Shown here piece after piece: positions 39,651 through 50,435 of a stretch of 64,000 nt of DNA. The notes under the pieces were generated by a model, which was not told where the DNA came from, ran no database searches, and was given only the letters and a program-made list of their open reading frames with translations. Each line of letters starts with the position of its first letter. Positions within the stretch are counted from its first letter, which is position 1. The translations under genes were made by a program, and so were the position numbers. Origin of the DNA: Montifringilla adamsi (lineage: Eukaryota > Chordata > Aves > Passeriformes > Passeridae); the NCBI GenBank assembly GCA_017590115.1, contig JAGGNK010013114.1:434001-498000 (forward strand), written 5' to 3'.

Positions 39651-39667
39651 NNNNNNNNNNNNNNNNN
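39651..39667. other. 17-base assembly gap (N)
   Basis: Seventeen Ns lie in the densest GC part of the CpG island, 81 bases upstream of the CCT8 start codon. True length is unknown, and part of the 5' UTR or core promoter may be missing. Confidence 0.99.
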
Positions 39668-39748: not shown

Positions 39749-39808
39749 ATGGCGCTGCACGTCCCCAAGGCCCCGGGCTTCGCCCAGATGCTCAAGGAGG
39801 GCGCGAAG
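39749..39808 (+). CDS. CCT8: CCT8 exon 1
   Basis: Sixty coding nucleotides, residues 1-20 (MALHVPKAPGFAQMLKEGAK), identical to my recollection of the human N-terminus. The donor is AAG|GTGAGA, phase 0, and the exon lies inside the CpG island. Confidence 0.97.
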
Positions 39809-42800: not shown

Positions 42801-45800
42801 TGACTTCAAATTTATATTTGTGACATAACGTGAATAATATTTTCCTGAATTTTATGCTGAGTGATAGAGATTATGTGAATATGAAGTATTTACTTATTGA
42901 ATACATTATGTTGGTGTTCAGTATGAGTAGAATAACTGTGGAAGTCTCAGTTCTGTTTTTAAAAAAATATCACCTGCATACTAGTGACCTGATCTGATAC
43001 GTTTTGCATGTTACTTTCTGGTATAAAATGGCAGGTATAAGCATTCAGGAATATTGTATTTTATTGCATTTATATGAAAGAAAAATGAAGCAGTGCAATC
43101 TTTAAGCAGAACCCTCCCCCACTCCCCCCTTTAAAATGAAACTCTTGTTTAGACACATATATTGTATGTTACACATTAATTCAATTTGAAGATCTAAACT
43201 CCAGACTTCTCCTGTTGCAGAACTCAGTTGTGAAGCCACTGCATCCTGTGCAAGTAGCTCAGAACCAGTGTCAAGGATATCTAATGTATGTTGTAGTGGC
43301 AATGTTCAGTTCTCTGATTTTTTTTATATATATTTATGCTTTTTCTTACTAGAGAAGTTAGCCAATTAAGAATATCTGTGCTGCTTTCTTTTCCAATTTT
43401 GTGCATTTTTTATATCTCTAGGTACAATTTGAAATAAGAGAACTTAAAAAGATGCATAGAAAATACCTGAAGCTGCAATCTTAGGTAGTGTGTTAGTCAC
43501 CAAGATCTGTATCTTCTTTTAAAGGTCCAGCATCCTGCTGCGAAAATGCTTGTGATGGCTTCACACATGCAAGAACAAGAGGTTGGAGATGGAACAAATT
43601 TTGTCCTTGTTTTTGCTGGAGTTCTTTTGGAGTTAGCAGAAGACCTTCTGAGGATGGGGTTGTCTGTCTCAGAGGCAAGTTATATTCTCATTACAGTTCA
43701 CAGAGCTTGAATCCAGGTTGCTGCTGATCAGTGTTCTTGGGTCATAATACTGTGAAATCATCTGTTTTCTTCCCACCTAATTTTTTCGATAAAGATGTTT
43801 GAAAGGGAACCATGTGTTCTGTTGCTTGTGATTGCTTGCTTCCCTTGTAAGCTTTTGCATCTGTTAATGTTTTATGGCTATTTAAAAAGCCGTTAAAAGC
43901 AGTATGAATTCTTGTAGTGAATGTTTACTGTTTGCTACACAGGTGATTGAAGGATATGAAAAGGCTTGCAAGAAAGCCCTAGAAATTCTTCCAGATTTGG
44001 TGTGCTGTTCTGCAAAGAACCTTCGAGATGTTGAGGAAGTGGCATCTTTGTTGTACACGTCAGTCATGAGCAAACAGTACGGCAATGAACGGTTCTTGGC
44101 AAAGCTTATTGCTCAGGCCTGTGGTAAGTGGGGCTGGAATAGGTATGGGCACACAGCTAAAAAACTGTGAGAGTTGGTTTGGTTATGGTCCTTACATCTT
44201 CCTATAAGATAGGAAGGATGGTTAGTTTAGCAGGTTGGATTGGATGGAACGCTTTACCTCTGAAGTGAGGGTAATCTTCCTCATGTTGAACTCTGCATTG
44301 GTGTTGTAGCTCAGAAAAGGTTTGCCTTTCCTACTAGGCATTTCTAGAAATAGCTTTCAGGTCATTTTAGTGCAGAAATCCATCTTTCTCCCTCTTTTTA
44401 TGATCATAAGGATGTCATATTATGCTTCACATAAGCTGTTTTTAGTCGCAGCCACAGAACAATGGAAGTAAGACTGTAGTTCTGTTGAGTTGTTATCCCT
44501 TTAGATTTCTGGGATAAAACTTTCATTTTTAATTCCAGTGATTTCTCTTAATACTCTGGATTAGACTTACCTCTTGACTTTACCTGTGTGAGTGCATATT
44601 TGAACTTAATTAACTGAGCAGCCTGAATAAATGCTTCTTTCTGATTATTACTTTGTAAAAACAAAATGTCTCTTTATGCCAGTTATTAGCAGGTTATGAT
44701 TGTCTTGAATTTAGGCAGACATCTCAAACTACTGAAATTAAATAGTTCAGAAAAATTCCAGGCATTATTTATGGTGTCATTGTTCTACTTTATTTGTTAG
44801 GCAAGACATATTCATTATTTTTCTTCTTTTTTTCCCCCAGTTTCTATTCTTCCTGATTCTGGGCATTTCAATGTTGATAATATCAGAGTGTGCAAAATTG
44901 TGGTAAGTTTGAAGTAGCTGGCTTTGCTGTAATTATTAAGGTAAATAGTGTAATGAGGGTTAATCTTTGAATTTCCAGAGTCTTTTCTAGTTTTGTTGTG
45001 GCAGGTATACTAACTTTTGGAAATTAGTCTTGTTTAGTGCCCAGTAGCAGCATTCAGAAACAAAAATCATTAATATTGGAAGTAATCTAAAATGGGAACC
45101 TGTTAGACAATGTTTGTTGTTGCTGAATGAGCTGAAGTCTTATACTTAGGGTGTTACATCCAAATGATTGTAAGGTCTGCTTTTCAGGGAGAGTAGTGCA
45201 GTTTTTGACCATAAATGGTCACTAATACAATGTTCCCCCATTCATAGAATCAAAGAACAGTTTGGTTTGGGCTGGAATGTGTCTTAAAAGATCACCCAGT
45301 TCCAGTTCCAGCCCCTTACCATGGGCAGGGACATCTTTCACTAGACCAGGTTGCTCCAAGCTCTGTCCAACCTGGCCTTGAACACTTCCAGGGATGGGGC
45401 AGCCACAGTTTCTCTGGGCAGCCAGGGCCTCACCACCCTCACAGGGAAGAATTTTTTCCTGATATTTAATCTAAACTTACTTTTTTTCAGTGAAAAACCA
45501 TTCTCCCTTGTCCCATCACTACTTGCCCTTGTAAAAAGTCTCAGATTCTATTTATTTCCTTTCAGGGTGCTGGTATTTCTGCTTCCTCAGTACTGCATGG
45601 CATGGTTTTTAAAAAAGAAACTGAAGGAGATGTTACTTCTGTCAAAGATGCAAAAATAGCTGTGTATTCCTGCCCTTTTGATGGTATGATAACTGAAACT
45701 AAGGTATGTTATAGCTCAAAATAAGTTACATCTCTATTTATGCATGTGCTCTTATTTTTAGACTTAGCTATAAATATTCTTGACACTTGGTGATTGAGAT

Positions 45801-48800: not shown

Positions 48801-50294
48801 TAAAGGGAGAAGATGAGATTGGAAAAGTGATACCACCTTGCTAGGTGAAAGCCTGAGAAAGTTTTGAATAATGTTTTTTTTCCATCTGACAGGCCGAAGC
48901 TGCTGCAGTGAAGGACATGTTGGAAGCTGGTGTGTTAGACACGTATCTTGGAAAATTCTGGGGTATCAAGCTAGCTACAAATGCAGCAGTAACTGTCCTA
49001 AGGGTTGATCAGGTGAGTTCATGTGCATTTGGGTGCTGAATTAAAACCTGGCAGTACCCTCATGCAAATAAGTGGAATCTCCTGCAAATGCAAGGTGTAA
49101 ACATAATGCTACTTGAGAATGTGGTTTGTTCATTTCTGGAAGCCAGGAAGGCGTTTTTTCAAGAGCTTGTAATCTGGAATGTGGCTGCTTCTATAGCAGT
49201 ACTATTAATGTTTGTTGGGATATTTTTTTTAAAGATTTTGTTGATACTTTGAAGACAGTTTATATTTGTATCCAGAGAGCTACCCCAACTTCTGTAGGAG
49301 CAAGCTTTAGTAGAAGAGACCTTCTCGCATACATTTTTACATGAAAATCCAATTTTTAGGAAAAAGAGAGGTTACAGTCATGAGGATAAAAATCTTAAAT
49401 TATTTTATGAAACTTCAGCAAAAATGAATTTGCATGTAAAATTTTTGTAGATTATTATGGCAAAAACAGCAGGCGGTCCAAAAGCCCCTAAGCAACAAGG
49501 ACATTGGGATAAGGATGACTGGAAAGACGAGCCTGAAAACTAGAGTGCAGTAAGCTCTGTTTCTCTAGCAGAGAGGTATCTGTGAGTGCATGCATGAGTT
49601 CATTGACAAGCACATGGCAGATTGTATGCTCCTTGAGGACACATAACACTGCTGTCTTCTGCTGTGTGCTGATTGCTACATCCTGTATTTGTGCCCTTTG
49701 CAAATGGATTCTGCTCCTGAATCCACATTTTCATGGAAGGGATGATGTGCAAGTGCAAGTTCAGATTTACCTTACTTGTCCGTGTAGTCAGGGCAGAGAA
49801 TGAGCATTAACGTGGTAGGACTGATGGACTTCATGATTTTAAAGTGTGATACTTAGAGACAATAATTGAGAACAGTAGCTTGATAATCCTTTCTGTAATG
49901 TGCACCCTGTAAACTAGTCTGCTGTTGGCGTATTTAAGCACTCACTTTCTGTAGACTAACTGAAATCTTAATTTGCATGTAAAAATCAGGTAAAATACCT
50001 TTTTTTACTGTATCAGGGCTCAGCCTCTATCATTCTCAAGAAAAAAAAGAAAAAGTTGTTAATATCTCAATGAGATAGATATTCACTGGCTTGGGTTCAG
50101 AGTAGGAAAGCTGCATGAATGTAGTGAATGCTAGCAGTCAGCATCGTGCGGCTGTAGAAGAAGGGTACAAGTCTGATTTTAACATTAGCTTTTTCTATTT
50201 CTCTATTCTCTTCAAGATTATTATGGCAAAACCAGCTGGTGGCCCAAAACCTCCATCAGGAAAGAAAGACTGGGATGAAGACCAAAATGATTGA
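39749..50294 (+). CDS. CCT8: T-complex protein 1 subunit theta (CCT-theta), complete, 15 coding exons
   Basis: This is one of eight paralogous subunits of the cytosolic chaperonin TRiC/CCT, which folds actin, tubulin and other proteins using ATP. Exons: 39749-39808, 41568-41658, 42269-42348, 43525-43674, 43943-44123, 44841-44902, 45566-45703, 46136-46314, 46431-46497, 46581-46668, 46776-46891, 48095-48166, 48338-48502, 48893-49012, 50217-50294. The joined frame is open for 548 codons, the human length, and nearly identical to human CCT8. Visible motifs: TAYGPNGMNKMV (44-55), nucleotide-binding GDGTN (98-102), GGGATEIELA (411-420), and ERAVDDG, where Asp394 aligns with the hydrolytic Asp of group II chaperonins. 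The order is equatorial, intermediate, apical, intermediate, equatorial. Intron 4 uses a GC donor. A second homologous last exon (49451-49543) gives a 553-residue alternative. The start is the conserved MALHVPKAPGF in a good context (GGAGATGG). Confidence 0.98.
39809..41567 (+). other. CCT8 intron 1
   Basis: The first 400 bp continue the CpG island; an antisense CR1 follows (40459-40706). The rest is AT-rich, with nothing else supportable. Confidence 0.8.
40459..40706 (-). mobile_element. CR1 LINE 3' fragment in CCT8 intron 1
   Basis: Antisense CR1: GTATTGGAAGGGACCTTAAA, GATCATTTAGCTCCAAGCCC, CCTCACCACCCTCGCAGGGA. There is a small deletion after GCCCCATG. Confidence 0.85.
41568..41658 (+). 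CDS. CCT8: CCT8 exon 2
   Basis: Ninety-one nt, residues 21-50 plus one base. It starts HYSGLEEAVYRN and ends TRTAYGPN. Acceptor CTCTTCAG|CAT, donor ACG|GTAAAT. TAYGPNG is part of the conserved equatorial nucleotide-binding segment. Confidence 0.97.
42269..42348 (+). CDS. CCT8: CCT8 exon 3
   Basis: Eighty nt, residues 51-77: GMNKMVINHLEKLFVTNDAA then TILRELE. Acceptor CCATTTAG|GAA, donor GAG|GTAAGT. Confidence 0.97.
42349..43524 (+). other. CCT8 intron 3
   Basis: A 1.18-kb GT-AG intron of unique AT-rich sequence with no repeat of note. Confidence 0.8.
43525..43674 (+). CDS. CCT8: CCT8 exon 4 (GC donor)
   Basis: One hundred and fifty nt, residues 78-127, from VQHPAAKMLVMASH through the nucleotide-binding QEVGDGTNFVLVF to LLRMGLSVSE. 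Acceptor TTTTAAAG|GTC. The donor reads CAGAG|GCAAGT: the protein frame requires the cut here, so the intron begins GC, in an otherwise consensus context. Confidence 0.96.
43675..43680 (+). promoter_or_regulatory. CCT8: Non-canonical GC 5' splice site of CCT8 intron 4
   Basis: GCAAGT follows ..TCAGAG. Apart from the C at +2 it matches the U1 consensus (AG|GYAAGT), as expected for a U2-type GC-AG intron. The acceptor at 43941-43942 is AG. Confidence 0.92.
43943..44123 (+). CDS. CCT8: CCT8 exon 5
   Basis: The exon is 181 nt, residues 128-187 plus one base, from VIEGYEKACKKALEIL to FLAKLIAQAC. It includes DLVCCSAKNLRDVEEVASLL and the invariant-looking MSKQYGNE. Acceptor GCTACACAG|GTG, donor TGTG|GTAAGT. 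Confidence 0.97.
44124..44840 (+). other. CCT8 intron 5
   Basis: A 0.7-kb GT-AG intron with a pyrimidine-rich end (TTTTTTTCCCCCAG). Nothing else is recognised. Confidence 0.8.
44841..44902 (+). CDS. CCT8: CCT8 exon 6
   Basis: Sixty-two nt, residues 188-208, VSILPDSGHFNVDNIRVCKI then V. Human has F at residue 191 where this has L. Acceptor TTTCCCCCAG|TTT, donor GTG|GTAAGT. Confidence 0.97.
45241..45542 (-). mobile_element. CR1 LINE 3' end in CCT8 intron 6, adjoining the exon 7 acceptor
   Basis: The antisense CR1 starts TCATAGAATCAAAGAACAGT and runs through CCAGGTTGCTCCAAGC and CACAGGGAAGAATTTTTTCC to about 45542. Only some 22 bp remain to the exon 7 acceptor AG (45564-45565). The branch point of intron 6, normally 20-40 nt upstream, would therefore fall at or inside the CR1. 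Confidence 0.9.
45566..45703 (+). CDS. CCT8: CCT8 exon 7
   Basis: The exon is 138 nt, residues 209-254, from GAGISASSVLHGMVFKKETE to CPFDGMITETK, entering the apical domain. Acceptor TTTCCTTTCAG|GGT, donor AAG|GTATGT. The acceptor is directly preceded by a CR1 insertion. Confidence 0.97.
45704..46135 (+). other. CCT8 intron 7
   Basis: A 432-bp GT-AG intron with a 12-15 base T run near 45970. No repeat or RNA gene is seen. Confidence 0.75.
46136..46314 (+). CDS. CCT8: CCT8 exon 8
   Basis: The exon is 179 nt, residues 255-313 plus two bases, from GTVLIKNAEELMNFSKGEEN to ALHYANKYNLMLV. This is the apical (substrate-binding) domain. Acceptor GTTTTACTAG|GGC, donor TAAG|GTAAGT. Confidence 0.97.
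46431..46497 (+). CDS. CCT8: CCT8 exon 9
   Basis: Sixty-seven nt completing Arg314 and encoding LNSKWDLRRLCKTVGATALP then RL (to 336). Acceptor CTTTTTAAAG|GTT, donor CTG|GTATGT. Confidence 0.97.
46581..46668 (+). CDS. CCT8: CCT8 exon 10
   Basis: Eighty-eight nt, residues 337-365 plus one base: TPPTLEEMGHCSSVYLSEVG then DTQVVVFKH. Human has V and D where this has T340 and S348. Acceptor TTTTTTTCTAG|ACT, donor ATG|GTATGT. Confidence 0.97.
46776..46891 (+). CDS. CCT8: CCT8 exon 11
   Basis: The exon is 116 nt, residues 366-404, KEDGAISTILIRGSTDNL then MDDIERAVDDGVNTFKVLTR. The second Asp of VDDG (394) aligns with the catalytic Asp of other CCT subunits (family inference). Acceptor TCTGAACAG|AAA, donor AGG|GTGAGT. 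Confidence 0.97.
46892..48094 (+). other. CCT8 intron 11
   Basis: A 1.2-kb GT-AG intron. A snoRNA was considered, but no paired C/D or H/ACA boxes convinced me. No repeat other than short homopolymers. Confidence 0.7.
48095..48166 (+). CDS. CCT8: CCT8 exon 12
   Basis: Seventy-two nt, residues 405-428, DKRLVPGGGATEIELAKQIT then SYGE. The GGGA loop contacts nucleotide in the equatorial domain. Acceptor CTTTCCACAG|GAT, donor GAG|GTATGG. Confidence 0.97.
48338..48502 (+). CDS. CCT8: CCT8 exon 13
   Basis: The exon is 165 nt, residues 429-483, from TCPGLDQYAIKKFAEAFEAI to HQEGKKNVGFDIE. Acceptor TTCATTTTAG|ACT, donor GAG|GTAAAT. Confidence 0.97.
48893..49012 (+). CDS. CCT8: CCT8 exon 14 (last common exon)
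   Basis: The exon is 120 nt, residues 484-523, AEAAAVKDMLEAGVLDTYLG then KFWGIKLATNAAVTVLRVDQ. Acceptor CATCTGACAG|GCC, donor CAG|GTGAGT. It ends in phase 0 and can join either 49451 or 50217. Confidence 0.97.
49451..49543 (+). CDS. CCT8: CCT8 alternative last coding exon 15a
   Basis: After an acceptor (AAAATTTTTGTAG|ATT) this encodes IIMAKTAGGPKAPKQQGHWD then KDDWKDEPEN and TAG at 49541-49543. Its first 11-13 codons are homologous to exon 15b (IIMAKPAGGPKPP), but the tail is longer, with GHWDKDDW. No AATAAA or ATTAAA lies between it and 15b. A donor-like CA|GTAAGC at 49550 would make it a 99-nt cassette (49451-49549). The stop is then 6 nt before the junction, too near to trigger nonsense-mediated decay by the usual 50-nt rule. 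The product would have 553 residues. Confidence 0.75.
   Translation: MIMAKTAGGPKAPKQQGHWDKDDWKDEPEN
50217..50294 (+). CDS. CCT8: CCT8 last coding exon 15b (canonical C-terminus)
   Basis: Acceptor ATTCTCTTCAAG|ATT. It encodes residues 524-548, IIMAKPAGGPKPPSGKKDWD then EDQND, and TGA at 50292-50294. Human ends PSGKKDWDDDQND, so this is the canonical tail. CCT C-termini project into the folding cavity. Confidence 0.97.
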   Translation: MIMAKPAGGPKPPSGKKDWDEDQND

Positions 50295-50429: not shown

Positions 50430-50435
50430 AATAAA
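50430..50435 (+). terminator. CCT8: CCT8 polyadenylation signal
   Basis: AATAAA in CCTCAATAAACGTACTC lies 136 nt after the stop. It is the first canonical signal after either stop codon. Cleavage is expected near 50450-50460. Confidence 0.9.

Follow-up and report, generated by a model that had tools for sequence, protein, structure and literature searches.

A tandem-duplicated CCT8 exon encodes a second chaperonin tail conserved among bony vertebrates

Here, we provide evidence that CCT8, which encodes T-complex protein 1 subunit theta of the chaperonin TRiC, the principal protein-folding complex of the cell, possesses two homologous exons for its C-terminal tail, and that the additional exon, 15a, is almost certainly a real coding exon with a conserved alternative tail. 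The analysis is based on a 64,000-nucleotide (nt) stretch of the genome of the passerine bird Montifringilla adamsi (assembly GCA_017590115.1, contig JAGGNK010013114.1, positions 434,001 to 498,000 of the forward strand), referred to as the window, whose own positions are given throughout. The constitutive exon 14 (48893..49012, + strand), delimited by tblastn and its splice edges, ends with ...VLRVDQ in phase 0 at the donor CAG/GTGAGT and can be spliced to two acceptors, both in phase 0. The first, 438 nt further on, belongs to exon 15a (49451..49549, + strand), a 99-nt cassette in intron 14 that was recognized from the sequence and whose tail is conserved in database rows. The second belongs to exon 15b (50217..50294, + strand), the canonical last coding exon with 25 codons and a TGA stop, whose tail is also that of solved TRiC chains. 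Exon 15a starts at the acceptor TTTTTGTAG/ATTATT (49450/49451), and its coding part (49451-49543) comprises 30 codons and a TAG stop (49541-49543), followed by 6 nt of 3' untranslated region (3'UTR) and the donor GCA/GTAAGC, with the last exon base at 49549, 6 nt past the stop. The encoded tails are IIMAKTAGGPKAPKQQGHWDKDDWKDEPEN for 15a and IIMAKPAGGPKPPSGKKDWDEDQND for 15b, and 673 nt separate the two coding parts.

The only AATAAA polyadenylation (poly(A)) signal between 49000 and 50800 lies at 50430..50435 (+ strand) and is common to both mRNA forms; neither AATAAA nor ATTAAA was found between 15a and 15b (49543 to 50216). The first-pass annotation, made from the letters of the window, had placed the phase 0 end of exon 14, both acceptors, the 673-nt gap, the stop and the GTAAGC donor 6 nt beyond it correctly to the base, and had rightly denied 15a a poly(A) signal of its own. 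Its description of two alternative last exons survives in part: there are two homologous exons, but 15a, with its early stop, is better called a cassette exon, as an mRNA that contains it should continue into 15b and on to the poly(A) site. Skipping would join exon 14 to 15b and yield the canonical tail, whereas inclusion would give the order 14-15a-15b, replace that tail with the one encoded by 15a and turn 15b into 3'UTR. Junction-dependent decay needs a stop 50-55 nt before a junction. With only 6 nt between its stop and the 15a-15b junction, and with 15b serving as 3'UTR, the 15a-including mRNA should be stable, so the escape from nonsense-mediated decay foreseen at first pass is likely.

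Both tails were traced in protein databases by a search whose query was the C-terminal 40 residues of the 15a protein (best 120 of 329 matches), a 15b search (best 120 of 1119) and a search with the macaque 15a form (best 120 of 247); database rows may be clusters, and P0001 alone stands for 565 members. All counts and taxa that follow refer to the matches listed. The 15a tail occurs in at least 104 rows, namely the first 100 of the 120 in the 15a search and four added by the macaque form (armadillo, raccoon dog, red fox, dog). Organism names are attached to 102 of the 104, all of them bony vertebrates, and most rows are labelled 'isoform X1'. Represented are teleosts, including eels and Arapaima, and the coelacanth; frogs and a caecilian; geckos, an agamid, anoles, lacertids, a monitor, snakes and the green turtle; passerines and peafowl; and, among placental mammals, carnivores, cetaceans, ruminants, hippo, rabbit, tree shrew, shrew, lemur, loris, macaque and armadillo. 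The coding status that the first-pass annotation had assigned to 15a is supported by this spread to teleosts and coelacanth, and the frame, whose conservation in other birds had been named there as a check, is conserved in the passerine and peafowl rows.

The two tail types are distinguished at positions 14, 17 and 24. Among 71 distinct 15a tails, Trp19-Asp20 is invariant (71/71) and Lys14 occurs in 69, Trp24 in 64 and Gly17 in 63, while all 36 distinct 15b tails (from 123 rows) have Lys17. Four species have both tails on contigs of equal size: Pyxicephalus (P0006/P0219), Nanorana (P0008/P0223), Leptodactylus (P0009/P0232) and Sphaerodactylus (P0045/P0216). In these, the two tails very probably belong to one gene because the contigs are equal-sized; Hippopotamus (P0095/P0211) was excluded as a same-locus pair, its two rows coming from different contigs. 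Judging from these sequences, the separation of the two types dates back at least to the common ancestor of ray-finned fish and tetrapods, more than 400 million years ago. The cartilaginous fishes Callorhinchus and Heterodontus were represented by 15b only, and no cyclostome or amphioxus row was recognized among the matches listed for the 15a, 15b and mammalian-15a queries. The persistence of both CCT8 tails in fish, birds and mammals alike suggests that TRiC can be built in two versions in vertebrates.

Two lineages deserve separate mention. Placental mammals (rows P0073-P0097 and P0240-P0243) display concerted changes in 15a, with Leu6, Asn18 and, in most, a ...DE-x-H-I end, a pattern that suggests altered constraint in that lineage. 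In the eel Anguilla rostrata (P0012, P0069), two loci on separate contigs encode a 15a tail, so that the exon was seemingly retained in both copies of a duplicated CCT8.

Over the first 39 nt of 15b, 32 positions are identical in 15a, compared with 23 of 39 for the next-best ungapped match on either strand of the window (background mean 9.9, standard deviation 2.7). The two exons run in register without gaps for 22 codons up to the shared Trp19-Asp20 (14/22 amino acids, 45/66 nt), past which 15a encodes eight further residues and 15b three. By this comparison 15a is a tandem paralogue of 15b, homologous almost to the exon ends, and the likeness is not due to chance. The tandem exon duplication proposed at first pass is borne out by these matches and by the common phase; the shared start reported there is real, but the simple divergence said to follow it is not, as the register holds to the Trp-Asp pair. 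Blastn between the exon flanks recovered a 35-nt exon core (88.6% identity) and a 15-nt exact repeat containing TGCATG. Because all other flank matches are at chance level, the boundaries of the duplication are no longer visible, and such sparse likeness outside the exons would be expected of an old duplication. A larger duplicated unit was considered and found unsupported, the exon core and the 15-nt repeat being all that the flanks share. Within the first 13 codons there are seven differences, five of them at third positions, affecting four synonymous and two replacement codons; this excess (binomial P = 0.045) is weak by itself and was dropped as proof of selection.

Non-vertebrate CCT8 tails point to the older of the two copies. 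They often have Gly two residues before the Trp-Asp pair (WD), and many read K-x-x-G-(H/D/N)-W-D; tails of this kind occur in fungi (Absidia, Linderina) and tunicates (Clavelina, Phallusia), and in crinoids (Anneissia, Antedon) with Gln for Lys. Across 29 outgroup-type rows, the residue at -2 of WD is Gly 26 times, Asn twice and Lys once. The single Lys row, P0249, is 15b-like with Lys17, resembles the lungfish row P0247 and is probably of vertebrate origin. After omission of P0249 from the distance comparison, 7 of the remaining 28 rows were out of register and were dropped, and over columns 12-18 the 21 in-register rows were closer to 15a in 16 cases and to 15b in five. From these tails, 15a looks like the older, conservative copy and the canonical 15b, with its Lys-Lys, like a derived vertebrate novelty; the tail in usual vertebrate reference proteins is probably the derived one.

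The joining of exon 14 to 15a is apparent in two short database contigs, which encode P0091 (all 553 amino acids on 1736 nt) and P0051 (431 amino acids on 1643 nt). These contigs must represent spliced RNA or a retrocopy of spliced RNA because they are too short to hold the introns of the gene. The many 'isoform X1' entries further suggest RNA support for the 15a form. Pyrimidines occupy a fraction of 0.56 of positions -20 to -5 at the 15a acceptor versus 0.88 at that of 15b; of the 15 acceptors in CCT8, those of 15a, exon 8 and exon 11 share the lowest value. Skipping is the likely default because a weak-looking 15a acceptor competes with the pyrimidine-rich acceptor of 15b.

Candidate regulatory elements surround the cassette. 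TGCATG (UGCAUG in RNA), which we take to be the RBFOX motif, occurs five times in the 1204-nt intron 14, against 0.74 times in shuffled sequences (3 of 2000 shuffles reach five), and no hexamer of this intron is more enriched when the remainder of the window serves as background (Poisson P = 3.8e-4, uncorrected). One site (49431..49436, + strand) lies about 15-20 nt upstream of 15a inside a copy of the 15-nt repeat AATTTGCATGTAAAA (49427-49441), and two overlapping sites (TGCATGCATG, 49587..49596, + strand) start 38 nt past its last base. A fourth (49974..49979, + strand) falls in the second exact copy of AATTTGCATGTAAAA (49970-49984) between 15a and 15b, and the fifth (50112..50117, + strand) is upstream of 15b. 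Three sites are thus within 250 nt of 15a, which agrees, post hoc, with the arrangement of RBFOX cassette exons that have UGCAUG within about 200 nt. RBFOX proteins bound downstream of an exon usually promote its inclusion, and those bound upstream usually repress it. RBFOX-type proteins at these motifs, above all at the overlapping pair that follows the donor at 38 nt, would probably raise 15a inclusion over the skipping default in certain tissues, brain and muscle for instance. We regard regulated, tissue-biased inclusion as a tentative proposal that falls somewhat short of an even chance, and hold RBFOX control of 15a with the same reserve.

According to PMC10188570, most TRiC subunits extend their C-termini into the folding chamber and touch tubulin with them, and the unstructured C-termini seen between the rings by cryo-electron microscopy are pictured as a net that holds it. 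Parts of PMC9113939 likewise report that partly disordered TRiC termini form a septum, with substrate density at that place. An AlphaFold2 model of a bird 15a protein (P0001, 24 sequences) has its last helix at residues 501-520 and a predicted local distance difference test (pLDDT) below 50 for residues 523-553; weak as the model is, it thus has the flexible C-terminus after the last equatorial helix that is typical of the inter-ring tails. Both tails carry a net charge of -1, and the swap from SGKKDW to KQQGHW plus W-x-D-E-P alters the aromatic and charge pattern. The solved theta chains in the PDB, at the aligned ends examined, have the 15b tail or end before the difference.

It is plausible that 15a affects the folding chamber, and we consider it likely that the exon is a functional switch acting through the tail mass of TRiC. 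The flexible CCT8 tail would sit in the N- and C-terminal mass between the rings and contact substrates there, and exchange of Ser-Gly-Lys-Lys for Lys-Gln-Gln-Gly-His, along with the gain of another Trp and of acidic terminal residues, should tune how substrates or cochaperones are held. More speculative than either regulatory claim is the full proposal that bony vertebrates splice two kinds of TRiC, a housekeeping one with the derived 15b tail and a tissue-restricted, RBFOX-controlled one with the ancestral-type 15a tail, which would alter the inter-ring net of tails and the folding of cytoskeletal and muscle or neuronal substrates. If this is true, the TRiC structures solved so far show just one of two forms.

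Several observations weigh against our reading of 15a as a regulated cassette exon that switches the CCT8 tail. Inclusion of 15a in this bird is deduced from its relatives, and most 'isoform X1' entries were generated by automatic prediction. Human, other apes, rodents, marsupials, monotremes, sharks and cyclostomes are absent from the 15a rows among the matches listed, which is not proof of absence, and the exon may have been lost in some lineages. The 15a acceptor is merely tied as weakest with those of exons 8 and 11, in an acceptor table some of whose edges are 1-2 nt off. The enrichment of TGCATG was noticed before it was tested, and its P value would fail correction over all hexamers; two of the five sites overlap, and one is on the upstream side of 15a, where repression by RBFOX is expected. 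The outgroup rows used for polarity were obtained with 15a queries and lean toward 15a, and even so five of 21 are nearer to 15b. The AlphaFold2 model is weak (mean pLDDT 70, predicted template modelling score 0.58, 39.5-70.3 across five models).

The best-placed alternative, though improbable, is that the 15a isoform is made and conserved for a main role outside the chamber, in stability, localization, or the partners of free CCT8 or of a specialized or anchored TRiC. According to PMC11779644, axoneme-tethered TRiC of sperm has luminal density not yet assigned to any protein, as well as a linker whose identity is not known, and CCT8 is the sole TRiC subunit detected in respiratory axonemes; CCT subunits can also occur free, according to PMC13043943, and the 15a tail is predicted to be flexible. 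However, nothing links the 15a tail to an axonemal or other anchored site, and in an assembled ring the tail begins inside the complex. We find it quite unlikely that 15a is mainly regulatory, with its inclusion changing mRNA output through 3'UTR, translation or decay and the tail itself being minor. The position of its stop just before a junction could be taken that way, but 6 nt is generally too close for ordinary junction-dependent decay, and the encoded residues themselves have been kept throughout the bony vertebrates. In favour of this reading, PMC3091714 cites as sensitive to a translation inhibitor an alternative human CCT8 isoform that it does not specify and that could be a different one. 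That 15a might be a defunct copy or an artefact of gene prediction, and enter no functional mRNA, is scarcely credible: in the window the exon is known from sequence only, its acceptor looks weak and many database rows are predictions, but the reading frame, the two Trp positions and the splice join have been retained from fish to birds and mammals, and the two short contigs encode the spliced 14-15a form. Equally remote is the reading of 15a as an alternative terminal exon polyadenylated at a site of its own, which the internal stop codon and the U/A-rich intron behind it might suggest, and which we rejected given the lack of AATAAA or ATTAAA from 49543 to 50216 and the GTAAGC donor 6 nt after the stop.

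CCT8 itself extends over more than 10 kb of the + strand, beginning with an ATG at 39749 and closing with the exon 15b stop at 50294. Its exons were placed by tblastn with a CCT8 scaffold and by splice edges; the 14 upstream exons, with 78-100% identity per exon to that scaffold, encode a 523-residue core whose last residues are VLRVDQ. PDB matches of the window protein carry the name T-complex protein 1 subunit theta, and its closest protein rows among the matches listed are from birds. The 1.03-Gb genome has one CCT8 locus: 14 of 20 reported matches are on the window's own contig (C700), and the remaining six have 32-55% identity, the level expected for other CCT subunits. No second CCT8 gene or retrocopy was found as a source of 15a in this genome search of 20 reported matches. 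Intron 4 has an apparent GC donor, TCAGAG/GCAAGT, at 43675 (window 43669-43680), and would be a GC-AG intron. A 17-N gap at 39651-39667, immediately upstream of exon 1, leaves the promoter sequence incomplete.

TRiC is treated as a complex of eight fixed subunits in somatic cells, and extra paralogous genes are known mainly in testis. A CCT8 tail encoded by splicing and kept throughout the bony vertebrates would imply another somatic TRiC, one to which structural work has paid no attention, and a natural tail swap within one gene makes the function of chaperonin tails directly testable. Full-text literature searches, which were not exhaustive, found no published description of 15a. The protein named 'T-complex protein 1 subunit theta isoform X1' in RefSeq and UniProt for many vertebrates is the same protein form, given as a label only.

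Tandem-duplicated homologous alternative exons are a general class. Exons 15a and 15b are adjacent, homologous and equal in frame and phase, and, as in that class, encode one stretch of protein in two versions. Unlike it, the first CCT8 copy has its own stop, and mutual exclusion is not needed, since 15b becomes 3'UTR upon inclusion of 15a. We thus class 15a with homologous tandem exons, which are known as a kind; what is new is their occurrence in a chaperonin, with a stop in the first copy. Tissue-specific TRiC subunits encoded by separate genes (CCT6A/CCT6B, CCT8L2 and planarian testis CCT copies), as presented in parts of PMC13043943, PMC11779644, PMC12701526 and PMC2846930, likewise alter the ring or its relatives by cell type. 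In contrast to those, the CCT8 variation arises by splicing of one gene, concerns the tail only and goes back to bony fish. The C-terminal tails of GroEL, as cited in passages of PMC10188570, are likewise flexible, lie in the cavity, touch substrate and affect folding, but they are not splice-switched, whereas TRiC has eight different tails per ring.

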